IMG/VR virus record: IMGVR_UViG_3300034685_000158
Coordinates: 1-20,662 of that record
Reading direction: 5' to 3' (one strand)
Origin: a virus
DNA length: 20,662 bases
Shown here: positions 523-20,662 of the stretch, piece by piece
Layout: the number at the start of each line of letters is the position of its first letter
How positions within the stretch are numbered: position 1 is the stretch's first letter
Program-made: the position numbers and the translations under genes
The notes under the pieces: generated by a model
The model's database searches: none
The model's input: the letters and a program-made list of their open reading frames with translations, nothing else
Told to the model about the DNA's origin: nothing

Positions 523-621
523 AGTACGCGAAATTTGAGTGCGTATATAATATAAGTATTATTTTTATTATATAATTATAAAAGAATTATATTATATACG
601 CACTCAAATTTTACGTGTACT
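523..621. repeat. Long inverted repeat, copy 1
   Basis: A 99-bp element bounded by AGTACGCG (523-530) and CGTGTACT (614-621). Its core arms, 531-555 and 587-611, are perfect 25-bp reverse complements containing GAGTGCGTATATAATATAA, separated by a 31-bp AT-rich loop. Its right part (586-629) is repeated base for base, 44 bp, at 811-854 in copy 2. Each arm is itself partly symmetric (ACGC...GCGT). It could form a DNA cruciform or an RNA hairpin. No transposase, target-site duplication or T-run that would make it a simple terminator was seen. Confidence 0.85.
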
Positions 622-710
622 AAAATTTTTATCATTAAATTTAATCTTTATTTTTATAGATAATACTAACACTATACTTTATGGAGTATGGATGAAGATT
701 TAAGTGTTAA

Positions 711-846
711 AGTACACGTAAAACCTTAGTGCTTTACTTTAGTGAAACGCAAAAATTGAGTGCGTATATATAATAATATCTATTATAATTAATGTCTATA
801 TTATAAAAGTATTATATTATATACGCACTCAAATTTTACGTGTACT
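711..846. repeat. Long inverted repeat, copy 2
   Basis: The outer arms AGTACACGTAAAA (711-723) and TTTTACGTGTACT (834-846) are perfect 13-bp reverse complements. The inner arms share GAGTGCGTATATA (758-770) with TATATACGCACTC (818-830). The right side is identical to copy 1 over 44 bp (811-854 against 586-629). The left side differs: about 27 extra bases sit between the outer and inner arm, and the left inner arm has small changes that weaken the match. The loop is unrelated to that of copy 1. Conservation of arms with free divergence of loops suggests that the arms are the functional part. Confidence 0.82.
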
Positions 847-2520: not shown

Positions 2521-4323
2521 ATGCCTGCTGAATCATATCACGATTTCCCTTTATCTGGTGATTATAATTGGGATGCAAGCCAAGCTGAACCTGAATTAAG
2601 GCGATGGGCTTCAAGTGACGGCAGTGGTGATAAAGAAAAAATAAATTGGTCTAAACTAAAGCAGGTATATTTTTGGCATGATTCTAGAAAACTCGAAAAT
2701 TTTGAGCAGCTTAAGTTTCCGTACTGTCGCATTGAAGGTGGCCGACCGCATGTTGTACACAACGCTGTACAAAATGCTTTAGCAAGAATAGAAGGTAGTA
2801 ATATACCAGAATCAGATAAACCTGCTGTTAGACGGGTTGCTGAACGGCAAATGAGAAGATTTAATCAAAGGAGGAGTAGTTCAATGGGAAGACCTACAGA
2901 ACAGCAATTACAAATTATTAATAGTAAATTCAGTCAAACGCCGCTTACTGCTGATGATTGTTATGTATTTTCTAATCTTATGATAGATAATCTTCCTACA
3001 AGCTACCATTCAATTATACAGCCTGCATTGCTAACTACATTTATGGAGGATGCGAAACAAGGAATAGCTTTATTGCTTGTTCATAATAACAAGAAACTTC
3101 CTGTTGGGAGATCGTTTGACGCAAGGATTAAAAATGAATATGTAGCTGATGTTGGAAAAGAAGTTTTAACACTTTATGGTGATTTTTATATACCTTTAGG
3201 TATTTCTCTTGAGGGCGGTATGACAACAGATGATATAGTAAAAGGTATAGAAACTGGAATTAATTTTGCAACGTCTATCGGTTTTAGCGCAAATAAGTGG
3301 GATTGCTCTATTTGCGGTAACGATATAAGAAATTACCGTGCTTGTCCTCATATACCAGGTAAAAAATATGCTGTAGAAAAAAATGGGCAGGATGTTGTAG
3401 AAACATGTTATGTACTTGTAGGTTCTGATGGAGAAGGGAGCCTTGATGAAGACTCTTTTGTATTCGCAGGAGCATGTAGTAGAGCACGTGTAGTATCAAA
3501 TTACTCAAAAGGTGTTAATGATTTTGATATGTTGTCTAAACTACACCTGATGGATGATTTTAAAAATATTCCATTAAATACAAAAATATACCAATATTTC
3601 ACTAAAGACGGTTCAGTGTTGTTTGTTGATACAGATGAACATACCGGCGGAAGTGAGTTTTTAAAGAGAAGGAGTGAAGAGGAAGTGGAACTGGCTAAAT
3701 TTAAGGAAGTATTGAGCAAAATGGGTATAGAATTTACCGATGAGAATAATCTTGAGTCTGCTATCAACAAGTTTGTACAAGGCAAAGTTGACGCTTATAT
3801 TAAGTCTATAGCAGATTCTACCACGACTTTTGATTCGAGTAATTATGTAACAAAAGATGAGTTTGATAAGGTTATTAGTGAAAAGGATGCTACTATAACA
3901 GAACTGACGAAGAAAAATGAGGAATTGTTGGAAAAGGCAGAGCTTGCTGAGACTTATCGTAAAGATCTTATTAATAAAGCTCTGGAGGCGGGCATTAGGG
4001 CACAAGGAAATGTGTTCCCTAAGGATATGTTTGAGAAATTCCTTAATACCCTTACTATTGATGAAATTAAAAAGGTCATAGATGATTTCAACGCAGAATT
4101 TAACAGTAAATTTGAAGGGGCAAGAGTTACTGAATCTAAATCTTCTGAGAAAAGATTTAGTTCTGAAAAAGAGCCTACATCAAAGGACGATTTTGAATCA
4201 GAAGAAGAATTCAGAAATTACATCGCTGATAAGGCTGTAGAGTATGCAAGAGAAAATAAAGTTTCAATAAAAGAAGCTACAAAAATTCTTTATTCAAAGT
4301 TTAATAAGGATGGTGAAAAATAA
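2521..4323 (+). CDS. Head maturation protease fused to scaffold
   Basis: A 600-residue protein with three parts. Residues 1-120 form a module seen in XkdF-like phage head proteins (INWSKLKQVYFWHD..., ending in ARIEGSNIPESDK...AVRRVAERQMRRF). Residues ~122-330 fit a prohead protease: LLLVHNNKKLPVGRSFD supplies the probable catalytic His188 and FATSIGFS the probable catalytic Ser252. Just after that Ser comes C262-x2-C265-x9-C275-x-H277, a likely zinc-binding insert. Residues ~390-600 are charged, with a coiled coil near 445-485, as in a scaffold. The ATG at 2521 is chosen because it follows a GAGGGGGGG ribosome site; the frame also extends to a TTG at 2500 inside the portal stop region, which is less likely. 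It overlaps the next gene as TAATG. Protease assignment rests on motifs and position. Confidence 0.78.
   Translation: MPAESYHDFPLSGDYNWDASQAEPELRRWASSDGSGDKEKINWSKLKQVYFWHDSRKLENFEQLKFPYCRIEGGRPHVVHNAVQNALARIEGSNIPESDKPAVRRVAERQMRRFNQRRSSSMGRPTEQQLQIINSKFSQTPLTADDCYVFSNLMIDNLPTSYHSIIQPALLTTFMEDAKQGIALLLVHNNKKLPVGRSFDARIKNEYVADVGKEVLTLYGDFYIPLGISLEGGMTTDDIVKGIETGINFATSIGFSANKWDCSICGNDIRNYRACPHIPGKKYAVEKNGQDVVETCYVLVGSDGEGSLDEDSFVFAGACSRARVVSNYSKGVNDFDMLSKLHLMDDFKNIPLNTKIYQYFTKDGSVLFVDTDEHTGGSEFLKRRSEEEVELAKFKEVLSKMGIEFTDENNLESAINKFVQGKVDAYIKSIADSTTTFDSSNYVTKDEFDKVISEKDATITELTKKNEELLEKAELAETYRKDLINKALEAGIRAQGNVFPKDMFEKFLNTLTIDEIKKVIDDFNAEFNSKFEGARVTESKSSEKRFSSEKEPTSKDDFESEEEFRNYIADKAVEYARENKVSIKEATKILYSKFNKDGEK
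2867..2886 (+). promoter_or_regulatory. Internal ribosome binding site and in-frame start in the protease gene
   Basis: AAAGGAGGAG (2867-2876) is an ideal Shine-Dalgarno sequence. Nine bases after its AGGAGG comes an in-frame ATG (2884-2886), codon 122 of the long product. Starting here would give a 479-residue protein, MGRPTEQQL..., that begins exactly between the N-terminal module and the protease domain. The Arg/Ser-rich linker codons (QRRSSS) encode the site, so chance is possible, but position and strength favour a real second start. Confidence 0.6.
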
Positions 4324-4759: not shown

Positions 4760-5710
4760 ATGCCTGTTGTACAAAAAGTTCATGTAGATAAAATGCTTAC
4801 TAACATTTCAGTAGGTTATAAAAATGAAGATTTTATAGCTGATGAAATATTCAAAGTTGTATCTGTTCAAAAGCAATCGGATAGATACTATGTATATGGC
4901 AAAGAAATGTTTAGGGTAACTGATGATAGAAGGGCACCTGGTACTTCTGCTAATGAAGTCGATTGGTCTCTGTCTGACGACACCTATTTTTGTGAGGGCC
5001 ATGCACAAAGACACTTTGTACCGGATGAAGCTATCCAGAATGCAGATGAAGAATTTGACCTTGAAGCTGAGGCTACAGAATTTGTAACAAATAAAATTCT
5101 TTTAAATAAAGAGAACTTTGCAGCACAGAAGCTTCTTAATTCAGATAATTATGATTCTGACCTTGTAGTTGCTACTGGTGGAACGGGACAGCCTGCAAAG
5201 TGGTCTGATTATGAAAATTCTGACCCACTTGCTCTTATTGAAGAAATGAGAGTAGCTGTACACCAAAAGTCAGGGCTTCCTGTAAATACTTTAATTTTAT
5301 CGCAGCCTGTTTACAGCAAGCTCCGTATCCATCCTAAGCTTGTTTCAGTGTTTAAGAATACTGATATAAGCATAGTTCCTCTTAATGTTATGGCTGAACT
5401 GTTTGAGGTTGATAGAATCCTTGTAGGTAAAGCCCTTAAGTCCACTGCAATTACTGAAGATGGTAATGATCCTCTTGGTTATATTTGGGGTAAGTCAGCT
5501 ATTCTTGCATACATTCCGCCCAGACCTGCAAGGAAAACCCCTGCACTTGGTTACCAGTTCCAGTGGGTAAGGGGCGGACAGGGAGCCGTACAGGTAACTA
5601 AGTGGTATGACCAGGATAGAAAAGCTACTATAATTGAAGCTGAGCAGTATTACGATCTAAAAGTAGTGTCAAATGTAGCTGGAGTATTATTCCCTGATGT
5701 TGTTGCTTAA
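4760..5710 (+). CDS. Major capsid protein
   Basis: A 316-residue major capsid protein of HK97 fold, the main shell subunit. The N-terminus (HVDKMLTNISVGYKNEDFIADEIF, then QSDRYYVYGKE and RAPGTSANEVDW) is a well-known signature of one large capsid family, followed by a FVPDEAIQNADEEFDLEAEATEFV helix that corresponds to the spine helix, the A-domain region LALIEEMRVAVHQKSG...LILSQPVYSKL, and a C-terminal WYDQDRKATIIEAEQYYDLKVV segment. The ribosome site AAGAAAGGAGATGG before the ATG is one of the strongest in the window, as expected for a protein made in hundreds of copies. No separate N-terminal delta domain is evident, which fits the scaffold being carried on the protease gene. A GC-rich hairpin follows. 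Confidence 0.93.
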   Translation: MPVVQKVHVDKMLTNISVGYKNEDFIADEIFKVVSVQKQSDRYYVYGKEMFRVTDDRRAPGTSANEVDWSLSDDTYFCEGHAQRHFVPDEAIQNADEEFDLEAEATEFVTNKILLNKENFAAQKLLNSDNYDSDLVVATGGTGQPAKWSDYENSDPLALIEEMRVAVHQKSGLPVNTLILSQPVYSKLRIHPKLVSVFKNTDISIVPLNVMAELFEVDRILVGKALKSTAITEDGNDPLGYIWGKSAILAYIPPRPARKTPALGYQFQWVRGGQGAVQVTKWYDQDRKATIIEAEQYYDLKVVSNVAGVLFPDVVA

Positions 5711-10142: not shown

Positions 10143-13100
10143 ATGGCTGAAGAATTAAATAATGTACAGCATAATCTTAATGCTGATGTTGATATAAGTT
10201 TTGAGAGTGGAATAGAAAGTATACTTAGATTTGCAGAACAAATTGAATCTGTAAATAGTGTTTTTTCACAGTTATCTTTTACAGCAGAAAATTTGGAAGA
10301 TAAAATAGTTCGTAAATTTAATGAATTAGGCAATTTGCTTAATGATTCTAAACCTATAGCCGATGTAAATGAAGCTGTCGCTAAAAAAATTCAGCATAAA
10401 ATAAATCGTTATATTTCTCAATATGTAGATAATCTTAGCTTTTCTACTGAAACTAGCCGTTTAAATAAACAGCCTTTTGATGAATTTAATAAAAATTTTA
10501 CCAATAGTATAGATAAATTTATTAGGGAAATTAATACAAAACTGAGTACTGGTTTAATAAAATCTGCTAACAAAGAGGATGTTTTGAATTTTATTAGGAA
10601 ATTGATTAGTTTAAGAGATACGACCAGTAATTTATATAAGAAAATTTTTAATGCTGTGCCAAGTGAAGAAAGATTGGTGCAGCTTGAAAATATAAGGGCT
10701 GGTATATTTAAAGAACTTGATACTCTTGAAGGTATTGATAAGTTTGGTAGTACTTTTAAACAATTTAAACAACAGATTACTGATCTGTTTAATGGCATTA
10801 TATCTAAATATGAACAAGTTCTACAAAGTCAAACAAAAGGTGTTAGTGTTGGTGATGAGACTGTAATTTCAAAAACAGCCTTAAATAAATTAAGAAGTAA
10901 AATAAAACAGGCTATTTTAGATAGTTTAGATGTAAAATTTGGTACCAACGCCTTGAGTATTACTATTGATAAAAGCTCTGTTGGTGAGATACAAAAGGTA
11001 ATTGCAGAGCATTTTAATGAAATGATAAAAAAAGGTGATATTCAAATAGATACGGATGATACTGATATAGATAAAAATAGAAAAGATATTGAAGCTAGAA
11101 TAAAAGAGTATGATGAGAATATTGCCAAGATACGTGAAAAATTAAATAAAAAACTTATGGCAAGGGCTGATGCTTTAGCCAGCGGGGATCCTTTGGATAT
11201 GATGGCCTATGAAGATAAAAGCTTTAAAGTTGAAATAAGAAAACTTAAAGATGATCTAACAAAACAGGAAGCAGAACGTAAAAAGTTAGTTGATAACCTA
11301 AGTACTGTTCAATCTAATGTTTTATTCATTACAAACGAAAATTTGAAAAAATATTGGGCCACTATACAAAATAAGTTTGCTGAATTACTTTCTGAAACAA
11401 CCCTTAAAGGGTTGGATGATTTAGAGCCTATAAAGGTAGATAAAATTAAACAGGTAATTAACCAACTTAGTGAGACTATAAATAAGTCTTTTGAAGGCTT
11501 AAAAATTGATAAAGAAACTTTAAATAAAATACCTGAATTAGGTAAATCTATAGAGAAGTTTAATACTTCTATATCTGATATAATTAGTTTACTGTCAGAT
11601 TTAGGTAATAATTTTGCTTCGAAGCCAACCGCCGATTTTAAAAAATCTTTAACAAAAGTGAACGATGCTTTAGTTGGAGTAAAGCAACAAATAGATAATT
11701 ATGTTATTGACTATATTAATAAAATTATTCCTGAAAATTTATTTGCTGATGGAGTTACTGTTAATACCGATCCAGCTAAAAAAATAAATAAAAAGGCTAG
11801 TGCTAAACTTAAAAATTTAGAAAAACAACTAGATGAGCTATTGGAAAAAATTCCAGTAGAAACTGATGAAGCACAAAGAATAGAATTAGGTGTTAAACTT
11901 GTTGAATTAAATAAAGAAATAGAAAGGCTTACTGCATCTACTGGGGAAAAAGTTTTACAGCAAGTAGATAAAGTCAGAAAAGAGCCTTTAATTTCTCAAA
12001 ATTTAATACAAAAGTTTGTTGAAAAATTTTCACAAGAGCTAGAATCGTTGATAGATGTTTCTAAAATTGATGGTTTAAATACTATAAAGGAAAAGATAGC
12101 AGCTTTAGATAAAAATTTTAAAGAATTGGATCAAAATCTTAAATCAATACTTACAGAAAAAGAAGTTGGTATTGATAAGGAGATTGTTGTCTTTAAATCT
12201 AACATTGAAGAATTAGGGAAGAACTTTGAAAATATTAATGCTTTATTGAAATCCGCTGATGTGGGCGGACTAAAATCAGCTATTGAATCTTTAATAAATG
12301 GGTTAAATAGTTTAGCAAAAGATATTAATGCTATATCAGCGCAGGTTTATGTAGAAGATAGAAGTGATGATCGTATAGTAAGGGACATAAAAAATTACAA
12401 ATATGCGTTTGATGCTTATGAGTTAAAGCCTGACGAAGACCCTGCTCAAAAGTTCAGATATATGGAAAATGCTTATAAAGTATTGTTTGATAGGTATATA
12501 GCTTTAAGTAAATATGAGATTAATAAACTTTCTCCTGAGAGTGTTTTTGACTTACGTGAATTGAAAGAAACCGTTTTATATAAGTATTTTAATAATACAT
12601 TTGAAGGTTCTACTTATGATTTAATCGAGAGGTTTAAAGATATAGGTAAAAAATTAAACCCTGCCTTATATGATGAAACCTTGAAAATAGATGTACCTGT
12701 TGAAAGCTTATATAAAACTATAACTACTCAAATCAATGAGATTGTAGCAAGACTTACTGATATTTTAAAGAATGAAGTTGAAAAAATTTCTACAGACTCA
12801 GAAAAATTATTAAGCATATCTAAGTCTCAAGATATAGATAATGCAGTAAAAGCAATTAATGATAAGATTGCACAGTTAAGTAACTCTATTAGTAGTGAGT
12901 TTATTTCTGATATAGATAATCTTATAATTGAGTTTAATAAGATAAGTGATCTACTTGGAACAGCTAATGTTAAAGGTTTATATGATGCTGTTAATAATTT
13001 TGTTCAAGCTGTAAATCAACTCACTGGTGAAGTAAATACAGTACCTATTGCTGGAAAATACGATGATTTAAAAATTCAGGGTGTAAAAAAGGGTTCATTT

Positions 13101-16100
13101 GAGGTATGGCATAATACATGGAATCTCGATACTTTGGAAAAAACAAATGGCGGTTTTAAGTTTACACAGAAAGATTCTCCAATAAGTACAGCAGTTTCAC
13201 CTGAGGAAGCTTATTTTGCACCTGCGATAGATGTTCCGGATGGACCAAAAGCAATTTTACACGGTAAATTTGAGGGTAATTATATAGACTTTTTAGAGGA
13301 TAAAGAGGCAGCAAAGGTTATTAACCAGTTATGGAGTTCTATATTAAGAGAAGCTGGTTATGATGATAAATCCTTTTTAGAGCAAAAGCAAGAAACAAAA
13401 AGTGCATTGTACCTTAAGATGCTTAATACTTTGAGGTCAAAAGGGATTGACGCTTTAAAGAATTTTTCAATCCACCATGTTAATGCAGAAGAGCGTTTTA
13501 TATCACCTGGTGAGCTTCAAATTCTTCGTGCTGATTCTTTATCAGATTTCAGTGTTTTTCATTCACTAGATTTAGGCAATATTACAGAGAAAAACCTATT
13601 AGAAAAAATTAAACAAAAAATTGTACCTTCTTATATGAAAGGTTATATAAATGAAGATAGTGTATCGTATGAAATATCTAAACTTGTTTCGGATAATTTT
13701 TCAGAGTTACCAGCTATTCAAAAAATAAAGCAATATTTAGAGAAAGGTTTAAAATTTAGTGACACAGAGAAAAATTTGCGTGCTTATACTTCTGCTGAAG
13801 CGACGATGATAGACCGTTTACAGAAAAAAACAGACTATTTAATTAAAGGGATAGATTTAGAAAGTACAAACACAAGAGTACCGAAAAAACTTTCAGCAGA
13901 AACTATTGCAGCTTTACAGGGTAAATTAGATAACGTAAAACAAGAAATTAAGGGTATACCTTTAAACGAAACTATAGCTAATATTGCTCAGAAAATAAAT
14001 TTTTTGGGTGATAACTTTAAAGTTATCGAAACTAATTTACAAAAAGCACTAAATATAAAATCTAAAGGATTAGATGTACATGTGAGTAATCTTCCTGCAA
14101 TTATACAGGAGTTAGGTCGGAATTTTGAAAAAATAACCGCTTCCCTACAAAGTTTAAGCCTTGAAAATATACAGGTTGCAGTTAATAATTTTGCTAAAAC
14201 TTTACAAAAATTTGAGGGTGCTTATTCAAAGAAAGTAGGGAATGTAGACATCAGTGGTAATATTGAAAATTTGAATAAGAGTCTTAGAGAGTTGCAACAA
14301 GAAATACGCAATTCTGATAACGGTATTACTGCGGCAAGGCTTATTGTTGATGGTATTAATCAAAAAATCGAACAATTTGTTAAATCACTTATAGCTCTTT
14401 CAGCTAAAATTGTTAATGTAGATACAGCCACCCTCAGTATAAAACTGACACCTGAACAGTTACAATCACTTGAAGCTCAACTTGAAGGTGTGAATATTGT
14501 AAATGTTAATGAGATTAGTGGACCAATAAACACTGCACTTAAAAATTTGTTAGGTAATGCCGGGAAAATTATAGAAAGCCAGTTATCTAATATAATGAAT
14601 CAAGAAGATATAAAAATACCAAAGTTACAGACGAAAAAGATAGTATCTCAGCTTACTACCTTGGTTAATACTTTTATGACAGGGTATGTAAATGCTGTAG
14701 CTGAAAATTCTTTAATTTACAAACCATTAGAAATTAAAACTAAAGATTTACCGCAAAGCATTAAAAATGCTCTTGCTAAGAAAGCAGGGGTGTCTTTAGA
14801 AGATTATTTAAAGAGGACGCCTACTATTGGAGGGGCGACTGTTTTAGCTGAAACTTTGGAGCAAAATATGGGCGCTTTATCTGCTAAGTTGCACGAAGCA
14901 GCTATGAATAACGAGAACCGTTTGTTTAGTGAGTATAAAAATGCAATAAAGGGTATAAAAGTTAAGGTAGATACATCTCCAGTAGAGTATTTCACTAATA
15001 ATATTACAAGCATACAACAAGAGATAATTGCTAAAATAAAAGAAATAATGCGTGTTCAATTTTCGGAAATTAATAAACAGATAAAAGAATTAAAAGCTGT
15101 ACCTGTTGGATTTAATTATGTTCCAAAGAATATTCCCTCCACTATACCTGTAAAAACTGCAACAGTACAATCATACGGAGCAAAAGTAAATATACCTCGT
15201 GGTACTGTTAATATTCCTGTTCCATATCGTGTGGGAGACGATCTTGATTTTACAACGATATATCAAAAGGCTGGCGGGCTTGGAAGTCATGTTAATAATA
15301 GAACATTGTTAAATTCTATATTGAATACTATGCGTTATATACTTGCAGGTTCGTTATTAAAAGGTCCTTATGCTTACTTATATCAAGGGTGGGAGTCTGC
15401 TAAAGATTTTGAAGCATCATTAGTGAAGGCACAGATTAACTTATCTGGGTCTAATGAAGAATTGTTCAGAGATTTCGCCAGAACTAGAATTGAAAAGGCA
15501 GTTGAACTTGGTGTTACCAACGCACTAAGTCACCTAAAAGGTATAACTGATACAGAAGCAATGGTAGATGCAGAAGTAGCTTTCCTTAAAAAATATGTAA
15601 CAGAAGATGTAAGAAAAGATTTGCAGAATATATCATTAAGATATATAATATCACAGGCACAATTAGGTCAGATGTTTGAAATTGCTTCAAGGAGTACTAC
15701 TGATCCTTTTGAAGCAAGAGCTATTACAGAAACCGCCGCCCGTTTGTTTGCGGCAGAGCCTGGGGTAGGGTCTCCTGAAGAAATTGCGGATGCTTTACAG
15801 GCTTCTATAGTACAGATGGGTATGACTGGTTTTGATACAAAGAGACTTTCTGAGATATTCTTTAATATATCAACAAACTTCAGGGTAAGCACTAAAGACT
15901 TGCTTAAATTTACTGCAACTGCTGGTGCTGTGATGTCAGACGAGTTAAAAAATTATCAGACTGAAGAATTAGCAAAATTAAAGCAAGAAATAGAATCAGC
16001 TACAGGCAGCAGGAGAAAAGAGCTAGAAGAAAGATATAAGCAAGTTAAACTTGATACTGATATAGCCTTAACTGGTCTCATAGGCGCACTAATTACAGAA

Positions 16101-19100
16101 GGATCAAATAAAACTGGAACAGAAGCTGCTAGAATGATGATACAATTTTTTAACTCACTTAATACGCCGGAGACAAGAAAACTATTGGAGGATATTGCTG
16201 GCAGTAATCCTAAATATGCTAGTATACTACCATATAAATACACTCCAAACCAAGAAGGGCTACCGTTTACTGAAAAAACGAGTGGAATAGAATCGTTTTT
16301 TACAATACTCAAACTAGCAAATGAGATGGAATCACAGGGTGATGCAAGACTAGCGGGTGAAATGCTTAGAAAAGTATTCGGTAGGTATACTGGTGCTGGT
16401 AAAGCTGTTGATAAAATGATTGAAATTATAATGCAAAGATTTCCAGAATATAGGAAAGAAGGCAAGGACCCGGTACAAGGTATTATAGAGGACTTTAAAA
16501 AGAACTCAGATCTGTTTATGGAAGAAGCCATTGCAAAAAATAATATGACTTTAGCAAAAAGAACAGAACGTGCAGCAGTAACATGGGAAGCTGCAATGAG
16601 TAATGTTTTTATGGAATTTAAAGATGATATAAGTTTTGCAATGGATGCTATTACAAATATACTGAGAATTATAAGAGACAATGCAGACTTTGTGGCAGGA
16701 TTGATAAAAAATCTTATTAATATTTTAATAGGCGCAGGGGTAAGGCATTATGGTGGTAAATTGTTTGATAAAATCAATGCTAATGTTCTTGCTAGTGAAA
16801 GGGATTTATTAGTTGAGCCGTGGAAACAAAAAATAAAAGAAGATATTAAACAGAGAGCTGAGATGCAAAAAGATCTATTGAATTATGATGAAAAATTATC
16901 AAAAGCTGTTAATGTATATGAATCAGCAAGACAAGCTTATTTTAATTTAACGGGTGTAAACTTAGGGGATGTCGATGAAAAGAATCAACCTCAATTTACT
17001 AATAAATCTGTAAGAGAAATTTTAAATACTAGTGATGATGCTGTTGAAAGGGCTTTACTTGCATTATACAGTAGTCAAATTGATTCTGAAAAAGCGTCGA
17101 GATATACTATTGAAGGTAATAATATTGGGTTTAATATGTATGATGCTAAAATTTTATCTAAATTTGCCGAGAAATTGAAGTCTGGAAATAAACTATCTCC
17201 AGATGAAATCCGTAAAGCTAGACAGCGTTTGTTAAAATATAGTGGACAATTATCAGAGTTTGGTCCAGAATTATTCGATTCGGATACTGATATAGCACTT
17301 GTTACAGGTCAGAGTACTGGTGATGGCGGCATTATTGGAAGATTGAAAGCTAAAGCTTCTATGTTAGAAGAGAATTTACAAATGTTTAAAAATGACAACA
17401 TCTTATTAAATGTTGTTGGTGGAAGTATTTCAGGCATTTTACCTAGATCAAAAGAAGAATTATTAACTAGAGCAAATAAATATATACAAAGTTTAGAGTC
17501 TTTAGTAGATGAAGATGATGACATAGCAATGTTAAAACAATTATTAGACAATGAACAAGAAGATTCTAAAGAATATGCAAAGCTAGTAGAAGATATTAAT
17601 AAAAGACGGTCGCAGGTAGAAACATCTTTAGGTATACCAAGATTGAAAGAAGCTTTAGAAGCATATAAATCTAGTGAGATTGATTTTGAGAGTGTCGCCA
17701 ATACGATAAAGGAATTTGAGGATAATCTTCAAAAAATAAAATCTGGTATTCCAGTGAATAGGGTTGAAGCAGAGAGTGAAGAGCAGGAAAACCTTTTAAG
17801 GTTAAAGGCTTTAAGGGAAGCTTATGTAACTTTATATGGGGAAGATGCTACTAATGATAAGAAGTTAAATAATATTAACCAAAGAATATCCATGTCACAG
17901 AGAAGGTTGGAAAAAATAAAGAGCGGCCAATTTACCAATAGTGAAATAGAGCAGCTTGTAGATCAATTGAATGGGATGAAGCAGTTTAATGTTACTCCTG
18001 AAAATTATGGTGACATGGTAGAAACTCTAAACCAAATAAAAGCAGCTGTAGCCGTATATGAAGATGAGGCTGAAAAAATACTGAATAAAGCTACTAGAGC
18101 AGCTTCTACTATTTCAGAATTATCTTTAGGTAAAGGTAAACATGTAAATAAGCTTGCTGAACTTGATACTGCCATAGCTGAATCTCATAATGTAGTTAAA
18201 AATATTATTGAAGCTTATTCAAATATGGGAGCCGCCCCCCGTATTGAAAAAGGTAAAAGCACTATAGGCGGATTAAAAGATACTAAATTATTGAAAACCA
18301 TTGATAATTTAAAACAGGGATATATTAAAACCATAGCTGAAATGGTACCAGTATCAACCAATGCTTTTATAGATGCTGTAAACAGCTTAACAGATAGAAT
18401 GTTTAACAAGAAAATACTAGGTAAGTTGGATGAGGAGCAGGTTGAAAAAGCCATACTCAAAGCTATGGGTGGGGACTATACTGAGGCAGACAAGTTATTT
18501 GGGGAAAAATCAAAAGATATTGTATTAGGGTATGAAGAAATAAATACAGGAATTAGTAATGCTAAAAAACTTGTTGATAATTTAAGTAAGCAAAAACAAA
18601 TAATACAGGAAATAAGTAAGTTGCGCGAAAGCGATGAACTTAAAAACTATAAAGATTATATTACTGATAAGGGTGAAATATATGAAGAAAAATTTTATAG
18701 TGATAAAATACCTGGATATTCTTTAGACAAATCTGATGATGAAAATATCAAAAAGCAAACACAAATTTTAAAATCTGAACTTGATTCTATAGGTAAGACT
18801 CAAGCAGGCCAAAAACTATTAGAATTAAGAAAACAGCTTAATAACTTAACAGGAGAAGCAGATGCTTTAGCAAATGCGTCACGTAGAGCTGCGCAAGGAC
18901 AAGCACAACTTTCCGATGCGACAAAACGACTTGTTACAGAACATGAGTTAGGTGTAACAAAAGATTCCGAATTTATAGAGGCGTTGAAAAAAGAACAAGG
19001 GAGTAAACAGCAATCTCCTATGCAATTGGCATTAGGTAGTTTAGTAGGTTCTGTAGCAAGTATCGCTGGAAATATTGCTTTGAACTGGGTCATAGGTGAA

Positions 19101-20662
19101 GTTACTACCTTTGCGGCGGGGCGTTTAGCACAACTATTTGAAAGCAGGGCTACTACTGCACGGTTAAGATATGAAAGGGCTTCTGACATAGCACAACGAG
19201 TAGATGAAATTGAAAGGTTAAAAGGTACATCTGATGGAGGGTGGGATTTAAACTTAAAAAAATCAAGGTTAGGTTGGGATATGATTTTAAACAATATACC
19301 TTTTGTTAGTGATTTAATTCTCGGTAAAAGAAAAATATCTGAAGAACAAATGTCAAAAATTATAGGAGGTAAACAAAGTAGAGTTGAGGCTTTAGCAGAA
19401 CTTAAAAAACAGGCGTTAGAGGAAGAATATTTAAGCGAGAAAACTTTTGACGCAGTTAATACTGAAATTTTTAAAAAGTTAAATGAGGCTGTAAGGGGCA
19501 GTAATAACGCGGCCATAAAAAGAGAAGCAGAATTATATGACACAGAAACTTGGATAGACTTTGCCATGAATAGGCTTGTAGGGCCTGAGGAAAGAGATAT
19601 AAATTATGAATCTTTAATAAAGAAGCTTGAATTAAGGTCTAAAGGGTTTAGAGATACTTCACAAGAAATGATTAATATTGAAGTTCAAACAGCTAAAAAA
19701 TTGGCTGACTTATATGAGAAAGGTGCTGCATTTATAAAGGCAAAAATGGAGATAATGGAAAAAAATGCAGAAGAATTAGGTACTGATGTTAATACAGAAG
19801 CTTATTTAAAGTTGAAAGAAAATTATTTGACATTAAAAGAGAAAGCTGCCCAAGCTCAAAGTATTGTTTCAGATGTTTTTTCACAAATTAATAGATTGTT
19901 TGCTGATATAGAGGCAGATCTCAGTAATGCTTTAATTGGTATTGATATAGCTGATATTAGCAGTAAAATACAACGGTGGCGGTCTGGTATACCGGAATAC
20001 TCAGGAGTGGCTATTAATCAGCAAATATCTGTTTTACAATCTCGTGTCAGTGAGTATAAAAAGGCTGAGGAAGAAGAAAGGCAAAAACTTGCTAGACTTA
20101 AAGATGATGAAAAAAATAGTGGTATGTATAAAGATTTAGAAACTAAATATAAGAGTACTGTAGAAAAACGGAAGCAGGCAGAGTATGATTTAGTTGTAGC
20201 TATGCAGCAACTTCCAATATCTTCTGCTGAGACTTTAATGAATATGGCTGCTGCTACTGCTGATGTTGAAGCCAGAATTGCATTGGCTAAAGCACAATTA
20301 AAAGGATTGGGAGAAGATTCATTATATGCGAGGCTTATGCAAAAACAAAGGCTTGAAAAAATAAATGAGGCTTATGGTAGTATGATAGCCGCATTAAACG
20401 AACAGTACAATAAAAAACAGGGTGACTACCAGAAGATATGGATTGAGATGAAAGAGCTTGAAGCTAAGCAGCTTGAAAATTTAGTAGCTATAAAGAAACT
20501 TAATGAGAATAAAATATCCTTTAACTTACCGGATGGGTTGCGAGTTATGACATATAACGATTATCTGCAATCTACAGGAAACGAAAGGAGTTTTACATCG
20601 CAATTTAAAGCATTTAATTTGAATATAAATTTTGGTGATGTGACTGTAAGAAGTGATAATGA
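10143..20662 (+). CDS. Giant tape measure protein, 3' end outside the window
   Basis: One frame stays open from the ATG at 10143 to the last base, at least 3,506 codons. I followed it codon by codon over most of its length without meeting a stop. The start follows GGAGGGCGG. Product: tape measure protein, which fills the tail tube, sets tail length and helps DNA enter the cell. Residues 1-~1,690 are charged, helical, coiled-coil-like, with recurring LGxNF motifs (487, 691, 1288, 1324) and a compact insert at ~980-1145. A Val/Pro/Thr-rich linker (~1,655-1,700) leads to the TP901-like core (~1,700-2,190). Hydrophobic stretches lie at ~2,180-2,200 and ~2,960-3,000. The final residues NINFGDVTVRSDN resemble a motif close to the C-terminus in other tape measures, so the stop may be near. 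Confidence 0.93.
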   Translation, partial: MAEELNNVQHNLNADVDISFESGIESILRFAEQIESVNSVFSQLSFTAENLEDKIVRKFNELGNLLNDSKPIADVNEAVAKKIQHKINRYISQYVDNLSFSTETSRLNKQPFDEFNKNFTNSIDKFIREINTKLSTGLIKSANKEDVLNFIRKLISLRDTTSNLYKKIFNAVPSEERLVQLENIRAGIFKELDTLEGIDKFGSTFKQFKQQITDLFNGIISKYEQVLQSQTKGVSVGDETVISKTALNKLRSKIKQAILDSLDVKFGTNALSITIDKSSVGEIQKVIAEHFNEMIKKGDIQIDTDDTDIDKNRKDIEARIKEYDENIAKIREKLNKKLMARADALASGDPLDMMAYEDKSFKVEIRKLKDDLTKQEAERKKLVDNLSTVQSNVLFITNENLKKYWATIQNKFAELLSETTLKGLDDLEPIKVDKIKQVINQLSETINKSFEGLKIDKETLNKIPELGKSIEKFNTSISDIISLLSDLGNNFASKPTADFKKSLTKVNDALVGVKQQIDNYVIDYINKIIPENLFADGVTVNTDPAKKINKKASAKLKNLEKQLDELLEKIPVETDEAQRIELGVKLVELNKEIERLTASTGEKVLQQVDKVRKEPLISQNLIQKFVEKFSQELESLIDVSKIDGLNTIKEKIAALDKNFKELDQNLKSILTEKEVGIDKEIVVFKSNIEELGKNFENINALLKSADVGGLKSAIESLINGLNSLAKDINAISAQVYVEDRSDDRIVRDIKNYKYAFDAYELKPDEDPAQKFRYMENAYKVLFDRYIALSKYEINKLSPESVFDLRELKETVLYKYFNNTFEGSTYDLIERFKDIGKKLNPALYDETLKIDVPVESLYKTITTQINEIVARLTDILKNEVEKISTDSEKLLSISKSQDIDNAVKAINDKIAQLSNSISSEFISDIDNLIIEFNKISDLLGTANVKGLYDAVNNFVQAVNQLTGEVNTVPIAGKYDDLKIQGVKKGSFEVWHNTWNLDTLEKTNGGFKFTQKDSPISTAVSPEEAYFAPAIDVPDGPKAILHGKFEGNYIDFLEDKEAAKVINQLWSSILREAGYDDKSFLEQKQETKSALYLKMLNTLRSKGIDALKNFSIHHVNAEERFISPGELQILRADSLSDFSVFHSLDLGNITEKNLLEKIKQKIVPSYMKGYINEDSVSYEISKLVSDNFSELPAIQKIKQYLEKGLKFSDTEKNLRAYTSAEATMIDRLQKKTDYLIKGIDLESTNTRVPKKLSAETIAALQGKLDNVKQEIKGIPLNETIANIAQKINFLGDNFKVIETNLQKALNIKSKGLDVHVSNLPAIIQELGRNFEKITASLQSLSLENIQVAVNNFAKTLQKFEGAYSKKVGNVDISGNIENLNKSLRELQQEIRNSDNGITAARLIVDGINQKIEQFVKSLIALSAKIVNVDTATLSIKLTPEQLQSLEAQLEGVNIVNVNEISGPINTALKNLLGNAGKIIESQLSNIMNQEDIKIPKLQTKKIVSQLTTLVNTFMTGYVNAVAENSLIYKPLEIKTKDLPQSIKNALAKKAGVSLEDYLKRTPTIGGATVLAETLEQNMGALSAKLHEAAMNNENRLFSEYKNAIKGIKVKVDTSPVEYFTNNITSIQQEIIAKIKEIMRVQFSEINKQIKELKAVPVGFNYVPKNIPSTIPVKTATVQSYGAKVNIPRGTVNIPVPYRVGDDLDFTTIYQKAGGLGSHVNNRTLLNSILNTMRYILAGSLLKGPYAYLYQGWESAKDFEASLVKAQINLSGSNEELFRDFARTRIEKAVELGVTNALSHLKGITDTEAMVDAEVAFLKKYVTEDVRKDLQNISLRYIISQAQLGQMFEIASRSTTDPFEARAITETAARLFAAEPGVGSPEEIADALQASIVQMGMTGFDTKRLSEIFFNISTNFRVSTKDLLKFTATAGAVMSDELKNYQTEELAKLKQEIESATGSRRKELEERYKQVKLDTDIALTGLIGALITEGSNKTGTEAARMMIQFFNSLNTPETRKLLEDIAGSNPKYASILPYKYTPNQEGLPFTEKTSGIESFFTILKLANEMESQGDARLAGEMLRKVFGRYTGAGKAVDKMIEIIMQRFPEYRKEGKDPVQGIIEDFKKNSDLFMEEAIAKNNMTLAKRTERAAVTWEAAMSNVFMEFKDDISFAMDAITNILRIIRDNADFVAGLIKNLINILIGAGVRHYGGKLFDKINANVLASERDLLVEPWKQKIKEDIKQRAEMQKDLLNYDEKLSKAVNVYESARQAYFNLTGVNLGDVDEKNQPQFTNKSVREILNTSDDAVERALLALYSSQIDSEKASRYTIEGNNIGFNMYDAKILSKFAEKLKSGNKLSPDEIRKARQRLLKYSGQLSEFGPELFDSDTDIALVTGQSTGDGGIIGRLKAKASMLEENLQMFKNDNILLNVVGGSISGILPRSKEELLTRANKYIQSLESLVDEDDDIAMLKQLLDNEQEDSKEYAKLVEDINKRRSQVETSLGIPRLKEALEAYKSSEIDFESVANTIKEFEDNLQKIKSGIPVNRVEAESEEQENLLRLKALREAYVTLYGEDATNDKKLNNINQRISMSQRRLEKIKSGQFTNSEIEQLVDQLNGMKQFNVTPENYGDMVETLNQIKAAVAVYEDEAEKILNKATRAASTISELSLGKGKHVNKLAELDTAIAESHNVVKNIIEAYSNMGAAPRIEKGKSTIGGLKDTKLLKTIDNLKQGYIKTIAEMVPVSTNAFIDAVNSLTDRMFNKKILGKLDEEQVEKAILKAMGGDYTEADKLFGEKSKDIVLGYEEINTGISNAKKLVDNLSKQKQIIQEISKLRESDELKNYKDYITDKGEIYEEKFYSDKIPGYSLDKSDDENIKKQTQILKSELDSIGKTQAGQKLLELRKQLNNLTGEADALANASRRAAQGQAQLSDATKRLVTEHELGVTKDSEFIEALKKEQGSKQQSPMQLALGSLVGSVASIAGNIALNWVIGEVTTFAAGRLAQLFESRATTARLRYERASDIAQRVDEIERLKGTSDGGWDLNLKKSRLGWDMILNNIPFVSDLILGKRKISEEQMSKIIGGKQSRVEALAELKKQALEEEYLSEKTFDAVNTEIFKKLNEAVRGSNNAAIKREAELYDTETWIDFAMNRLVGPEERDINYESLIKKLELRSKGFRDTSQEMINIEVQTAKKLADLYEKGAAFIKAKMEIMEKNAEELGTDVNTEAYLKLKENYLTLKEKAAQAQSIVSDVFSQINRLFADIEADLSNALIGIDIADISSKIQRWRSGIPEYSGVAINQQISVLQSRVSEYKKAEEEERQKLARLKDDEKNSGMYKDLETKYKSTVEKRKQAEYDLVVAMQQLPISSAETLMNMAAATADVEARIALAKAQLKGLGEDSLYARLMQKQRLEKINEAYGSMIAALNEQYNKKQGDYQKIWIEMKELEAKQLENLVAIKKLNENKISFNLPDGLRVMTYNDYLQSTGNERSFTSQFKAFNLNINFGDVTVRSDN
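13080..13575 (+). other. Compact ADP-ribosyltransferase-like insert in the tape measure
   Basis: Residues ~980-1145 break the coiled-coil pattern: aromatic- and Gly-rich, with predicted strands. Order of motifs: VWHNT (His990), GGFKFT, SPEEAYFAPAI, KAILHGKFEGNYIDF, SKGIDALKN (Gly1101-Asp1103), then EERFISPGELQIL (Glu1116/1117). This order recalls polyvalent phage ADP-ribosyltransferase domains (H...T, a YFT-type segment, GyDGI, then a Glu before a P-x-Q/E-I strand). The match is by eye, and another small alpha/beta fold is possible. Confidence 0.4.
15237..16750 (+). other. TP901-like tape measure core region
   Basis: Residues ~1,700-2,200 match the usual core layout: entry segment (KGPYAYLYQGWESAKDFEASLVKAQINLSG), helical hairpins with ARLFAAEPGVGSPEEIADALQASIVQMG, then STNFRVSTKDLLKFTATAGAVMSDE, ALTGLIGALITEGSNKTGTEAARMM, and a late WEAAMSNVFMEFKDDISFAM helix followed by the hydrophobic stretch FVAGLIKNLINILIGAGV. 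In most tape measures this core starts within the first few hundred residues. Confidence 0.65.

Follow-up and report, generated by a model that had tools for sequence, protein, structure and literature searches.

Why a phage should carry two long inverted repeats between its terminase and portal genes was the question raised by this locus. The DNA analysed, referred to here as the window, is a virus record of 20,662 bases from an uncultured Jenstvirus-like phage, its portal being 44% identical to the portal of Brevibacillus phage Jenst. The repeats lie in a gap of 601 bp (457-1057) that separates the end of a phosphoesterase gene from the portal gene; no ORF of at least 60 aa was found in this zone, and its earlier description as gene-free was borne out. 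In a relative that is 97% identical to the window over the shared 6 kb (L001), TerL precedes the phosphoesterase gene. Transcription signals on the plus strand stand at both ends of the gap: an intrinsic terminator at about 455-476 (stem AAGCCT/AGGCTT followed by a T tract) closes the upstream terminase/phosphoesterase operon, and a promoter-like sequence at 986-1013 (TTAACA-16-TAGAAT with a TG extension) is a candidate promoter of the portal operon. The exceptional conservation of the gap between the window and L001 (1 difference in 601 bp) was rejected as evidence of constraint, because the whole tract 265-2145 is nearly identical. This tract, with a single difference at 601 and 3-4% divergence on either flank, reads as a recombination mosaic that takes in the gap together with most of the portal gene.

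The preliminary description, made from the letters of the window, reported inverted repeats at 523-621 and 711-846 and an exact direct repeat (586-629 = 811-854). All of these are present, and the direct repeat extends to 575-629/800-854 when one mismatch is allowed. Scored without gaps, the best inverted repeat of the 601-bp gap reached 25, the highest score among 300 dinucleotide shuffles being 14, and no other inverted repeat scoring at least 17 was found in the window. The sequence GAGTGCGTATATAATATAA occurs exactly in three arms and with two mismatches in the fourth, the expectation in the shuffled window being 0.01 matches. The repeats as such are far beyond chance, but the hairpin is not their unit: an array of one DNA site of ~17-27 bp, present in six copies, accounts for the palindromes better than two hairpins do.

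The site has a 17-base consensus, ACGYRAAAWYTGAGTGC. Palindrome E1 (523-621) is an inverted pair of the site, made up of iteron 1 (526-542, plus strand) and iteron 2 (600-616, minus strand), neither with a mismatch to the consensus. Palindrome E2 (711-846) consists of an inverted pair, iteron 4 (747-763, plus) and iteron 5 (825-841, minus), again with 0 mismatches, and an additional direct copy, iteron 3 (716-732, plus; 2 mismatches), placed 31 bp ahead of iteron 4. The ~27 extra bases previously noted in the left arm of the second repeat do exist, but they are this further direct copy of the site and not mere additional sequence. Iteron 6 (842-858, minus) is a weak copy with 3 mismatches and falls outside the palindrome arms. 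Orientation is mostly that of inverted pairs, 716/747 (31 bp) and 825/842 being the only direct ones in the window. Allowing up to 3 mismatches, no copy of the site was found elsewhere in the window, nor outside the cassettes in the 89.6 kb formed by the window and two related contigs described below (G005, 33.7 kb; G001, 35.3 kb).

The conserved block is larger than the 523-846 originally given for the repeats and runs from about 484 to 990, from one AT palindrome to another. The left boundary palindrome, AATGTTAAAATTTTAACAAT (485-504), marks the start of homology with a second cassette, and the right boundary palindrome is ATTGTTAAAAAATTAACATT (974-993). Between E1 and E2 there is an AT-rich stretch (606-665, 88% A+T), and a further tract lies 3' of the repeats (846-905, 87% A+T, above the window's 99th percentile of 83% for 60 bp), which is a candidate DNA unwinding element. 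It is followed by a GC-rich hairpin, ACCCATGTGCG-ACTTCGG-CGCACATGGGT (926-954), and by AATTAAAAGAATCCCGCACATTGTTAAAAAATTAAC (955-990), the best-conserved stretch between the two cassettes. No DnaA boxes were found in either cassette.

The second cassette was located by pattern search. The preliminary description had held that further copies at control points would support a function, and such a copy was found in locus L014 on contig G005 (33.7 kb, from a Jenst-like phage), where a sister cassette of three palindromes and eight sites stands ahead of a replication operon. Homology between the window and this cassette extends from 484 to 990 of the window, taking in the GC-rich hairpin and the conserved AATTAAAAGAATCCCGCACATTGTTAAAAAATTAAC, and has its limits at the two boundary palindromes; the flanks are wholly different. 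Those direct pairs of the site that have the conserved interior are spaced at 31 bp in all three cases (716/747 in the window; 7503/7534 and 7711/7742 in G005), and the inverted pairs vary in span from 88 to 98 bp and have divergent interiors. The order on G005, a contig without terminase genes, is tail and endolysin genes, cassette, replication operon. The operon gave a weak RepA_N match (E 1e-4, under the Pfam cut-off) and encodes, where Jenst has its initiator-like gp044, a 461-aa protein, followed by a DnaC-like loader, a DnaB-like helicase, a DnaG-like primase and polymerase pieces. Family matches are weak for both candidate initiators (461 aa, 9410-10795 of L024; 246 aa, 8666-9406 of L024), and a single-sequence fold of the 246-aa candidate was unusable (mean pLDDT 37). 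Cassettes A (window) and B (G005) are on different contigs with no genes common to both, and we infer that both would occur in one phage. Also on G005, between replication genes, is a perfect 34-bp palindrome, GTATTAATTGTTATTTA/TAAATAACAATTAATAC (18613-18646 of L024). An intergenic sequence that overlaps GTATAAGTAATTAGAAAG is repeated at 77% identity (14611-14670 of L024 and 21508-21568 of G005), occurs also just 3' of cassette B and may be a phage promoter motif.

Pattern scans of 2.9 million viral contigs for paired arms yielded no contig beyond those with the cassettes, and public phages and plasmids gave no meaningful match to the element. Single-arm matches in viral contigs L015-L017 and L119-L136, one arm each, were judged to be chance. 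In a near-identical phage (L005, contig G001) other DNA is found upstream of window position ~990 and none of the sites occurs in its 35 kb. There the portal operon is kept, as are the 70 bp nearest the promoter, and sequence from the promoter onward is largely retained, the cassette being absent at this position; because other sequence stands upstream of the portal gene, the window copy is either dispensable or replaced in that lineage. At positions 1-117 of L005, whose portal is 98% identical, the DNA 5' of the portal promoter is entirely unlike that of the window and includes what may be the end of another gene.

The comparison of this gap among relatives drew on loci that have related portals, 74 of them viral and 11 from genomes. 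Several of them have repeat arrays between terminase and portal, with sequences unrelated between lineages: GTAAAATTTAC occurs four times as a direct repeat in Jenst, and L063, L065, L067 and L068 have two to three copies of longer direct repeats. Ranked by repeat-richness among the intergenic gaps of its genome, this gap was 1st of 35 in Jenst, 1st of 22 in G025, 1st of 16 in EZ and third of 30 in G026. The A+T maxima of the relatives' gaps reach the 99.6-100th percentile and, with the exception of G023, are found immediately after the repeats. In Jenst, L063, L065, L067 and L068 the order is repeats, AT-rich tract, GC-rich hairpin (read from the sequences) and portal. Since some relatives have short gaps without repeats, the feature is recurrent and not universal.

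Two relatives link this position to replication directly. Between TerL and portal, G018 has a DnaC-like helicase loader and an initiator gene that is intact (phrog_6493, E 4e-40; internal repeat CAAAGCCAATTTGTCA x2). The gap of G023 contains, as a non-coding copy with 90-94% identity, the repeat region of the phage's own initiator gene (79,520-80,524), the product of which has a DnaB_2 domain (E 1e-11) and DnaD-like phrog matches. Common ancestry of the iterons across lineages was rejected, as no convincing match was found between relatives' iterons. A 10-bp match between the window iteron and Jenst (CGTAAAATTT) was equalled in 70 of 1000 shuffles and is not significant, and one of 11 bp with the G025 array (15 of 1000 shuffles) is weak evidence given that six arrays were tested. 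A dispersed repeat of G018 (1963/85654) was set aside, being away from the gap and in apparently coding or gene-fragment DNA. In L050, which has a 74%-identical portal, the same phosphoesterase-portal gap contains one long palindrome with other arms, TTTCTAGACACCTATAATATA (4801-4927); it is consistent, but not provably homologous.

The reading we favour, at a probability of about 60%, is that 485-990 is an iteron-type replication origin between the terminase block and the portal operon, working like oriR of the model Bacillus phage SPP1. Of the roles listed in the preliminary description, that of a replication element is the one now favoured, and the hairpin idea is unsupported. The palindrome arms would be copies of one putative initiator-binding site, mostly in inverted pairs. 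On binding to them, a replication initiator of the phage would melt the neighbouring AT-rich DNA (846-905 and perhaps 606-665), onto which the DnaC-like loader and the DnaB-like helicase of the phage would be loaded. The sister cassette ahead of the replication operon would serve as the early origin and the late-region cassette as a second one, which may stall replication forks and initiate the change to concatemer formation for packaging, as has been proposed for SPP1 oriR. Counting against this reading are the weak family matches of the candidate initiators, the separate contigs of the two cassettes, the mainly inverted repeats with their varying spans, the other sequence upstream of the portal gene in L005, the lack of DnaA boxes and of convincing iteron matches between relatives, and the short repeat-free gaps of several relatives.

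In SPP1, oriL and oriR each consist of direct repeats and an AT-rich unwinding element, and oriR, flanked by transcription signals, interrupts the late genes (PMC6316719). The likeness is one of arrangement, with no sequence similarity claimed: repeats with an AT-rich tract, one copy by the initiator module and a second, with transcription signals on either side, within the block of late morphogenesis genes, here on separate contigs. Unlike the direct repeats of SPP1, the window sites are mainly inverted pairs in palindromes of 99-136 bp, and the late copy stands between terminase and portal. An origin of the SPP1 type is expected to have one site repeated several times at the locus and not outside it, an AT-rich tract beside these copies and predominantly direct repeats; the first two are found in the window, but its repeats are mostly inverted, and the array is for this reason filed as working like the SPP1 type, not as a member of it. 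The repeat regions inside the DnaD-like initiator genes of G018 and G023 also have short repeats followed by purine/AT-rich DNA, and those of G023 stand in its terminase-portal gap as well; the window array differs from them in being wholly non-coding, with sites unrelated in sequence. It shares its genome position and succession of elements with the arrays of Jenst, L063, L065, L067 and L068, whose repeats, unlike those of the window, are direct and of different sequences.

Structured RNA is one alternative, the original description having suggested a selected RNA or DNA structure: the two to three tandem hairpins ahead of operons could provide a processing site, a put-like antiterminator or small RNAs. 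The palindromes fold very stably (z about -9 to -10, DNA parameters), but any inverted pair of sites would fold well. Covariation, named earlier as the check to make, was sought among six hairpin sequences, and 0 of 25 helix pairs had changed on both sides; paired cells in the aligned palindromes came to 91.8% as against 92.4% in shuffles, for the named helix and a small sample of six sequences. The match of a left arm to its own right arm is no closer than to the right arms of other copies, the extra direct copy and the weak copy form no second arm pair, and Rfam gave no family at gathering score, the best sub-threshold matches being microRNA precursor models. Selection on RNA structure is in this sense unsupported, as opposed to disproved. 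Because there is neither covariation nor a preference for the own arm, an RNA element was set aside as very improbable; pairing of arms with no sign of selection is as expected for independent binding sites. Such sites could also be operators of a phage transcription regulator, acting on the portal operon and, in the sister copy, on the replication operon. Both cassettes lie 5' of long operons and beside promoter-like sequence, with a terminator ahead of cassette A; against this, L005 keeps its portal operon and promoter-proximal DNA with no cassette here, and what G018 and G023 have at the same position is replication genes or their repeats, not regulator genes. An operator array is on balance unlikely.

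The array might instead serve a plasmid-type prophage as its partition centromere (parS/parC-like), with an adaptor protein bound to it; N15 is known to have dispersed centromeres. Jenst encodes ParM (PMC4909266) and has a repeat array just upstream of parM; that array is separate from the one between terminase and portal and unlike it in sequence, and no partition gene lies near either cassette in these incomplete genomes. A centromere is somewhat less probable than operators. Only slightly behind it, though still ahead of structured RNA, comes a mobile module (MITE-like, or a recombination cassette) with AATGTTAAAATTTTAACAAT and ATTGTTAAAAAATTAACATT as its ends. The abrupt limits of homology between the cassettes at 484 and 990 and the missing cassette in L005 would suit such a module, but inspection of the flanks revealed no target-site duplication, no transposase was found, and the pattern scans of viral contigs gave no dispersed copies; duplication of an origin would, moreover, give the same picture. 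Least probable of all is a packaging (pac) site for the terminase small subunit: its position between terminase and portal genes is apt, but the sister copy stands by a replication operon on a contig lacking terminase genes, and relatives have replication genes or repeats at this position.

What is new in the origin reading is that the sites are arranged as inverted pairs and that elements of replication turn up repeatedly between terminase and portal. A search of the open literature, as distinct from subscription journals, found no description of this gap in Jenst-like phages. To our knowledge, SPP1 is the main case among such phages in which control of replication by two origins has been worked out. 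A phage family with unrelated arrays, an initiator-gene fragment and a whole initiator and loader module in one and the same terminase-portal slot would mark the late origin as a recurrent solution, and would offer several natural variants for testing how concatemer formation and packaging are coupled. A wider and rather doubtful proposal holds that in Jenst-like phages the terminase-portal junction houses a second origin, founded anew time and again when an initiator gene is captured: G018 would show the captured gene whole, G023 its repeats as a remnant, and Jenst and others repeats alone. On the same proposal, the inverted-pair palindromes of the window lineage would act as a programmed fork barrier, switching theta replication to concatemer synthesis at the packaging genes.

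Minor observations were made elsewhere in these genomes. In Jenst (NC_028805), the repeat array 5' of the ParM gene, a possible centromere, occupies 2858-3121, and a long inverted repeat at 60869-60959 lies just before a gene annotated 'replication terminator'. In the window, an ORF of >3500 aa in the tape-measure position (10143-20660) runs off the end of the sequence; the G001 version is 3660 aa, and an unusually long tail is therefore implied.
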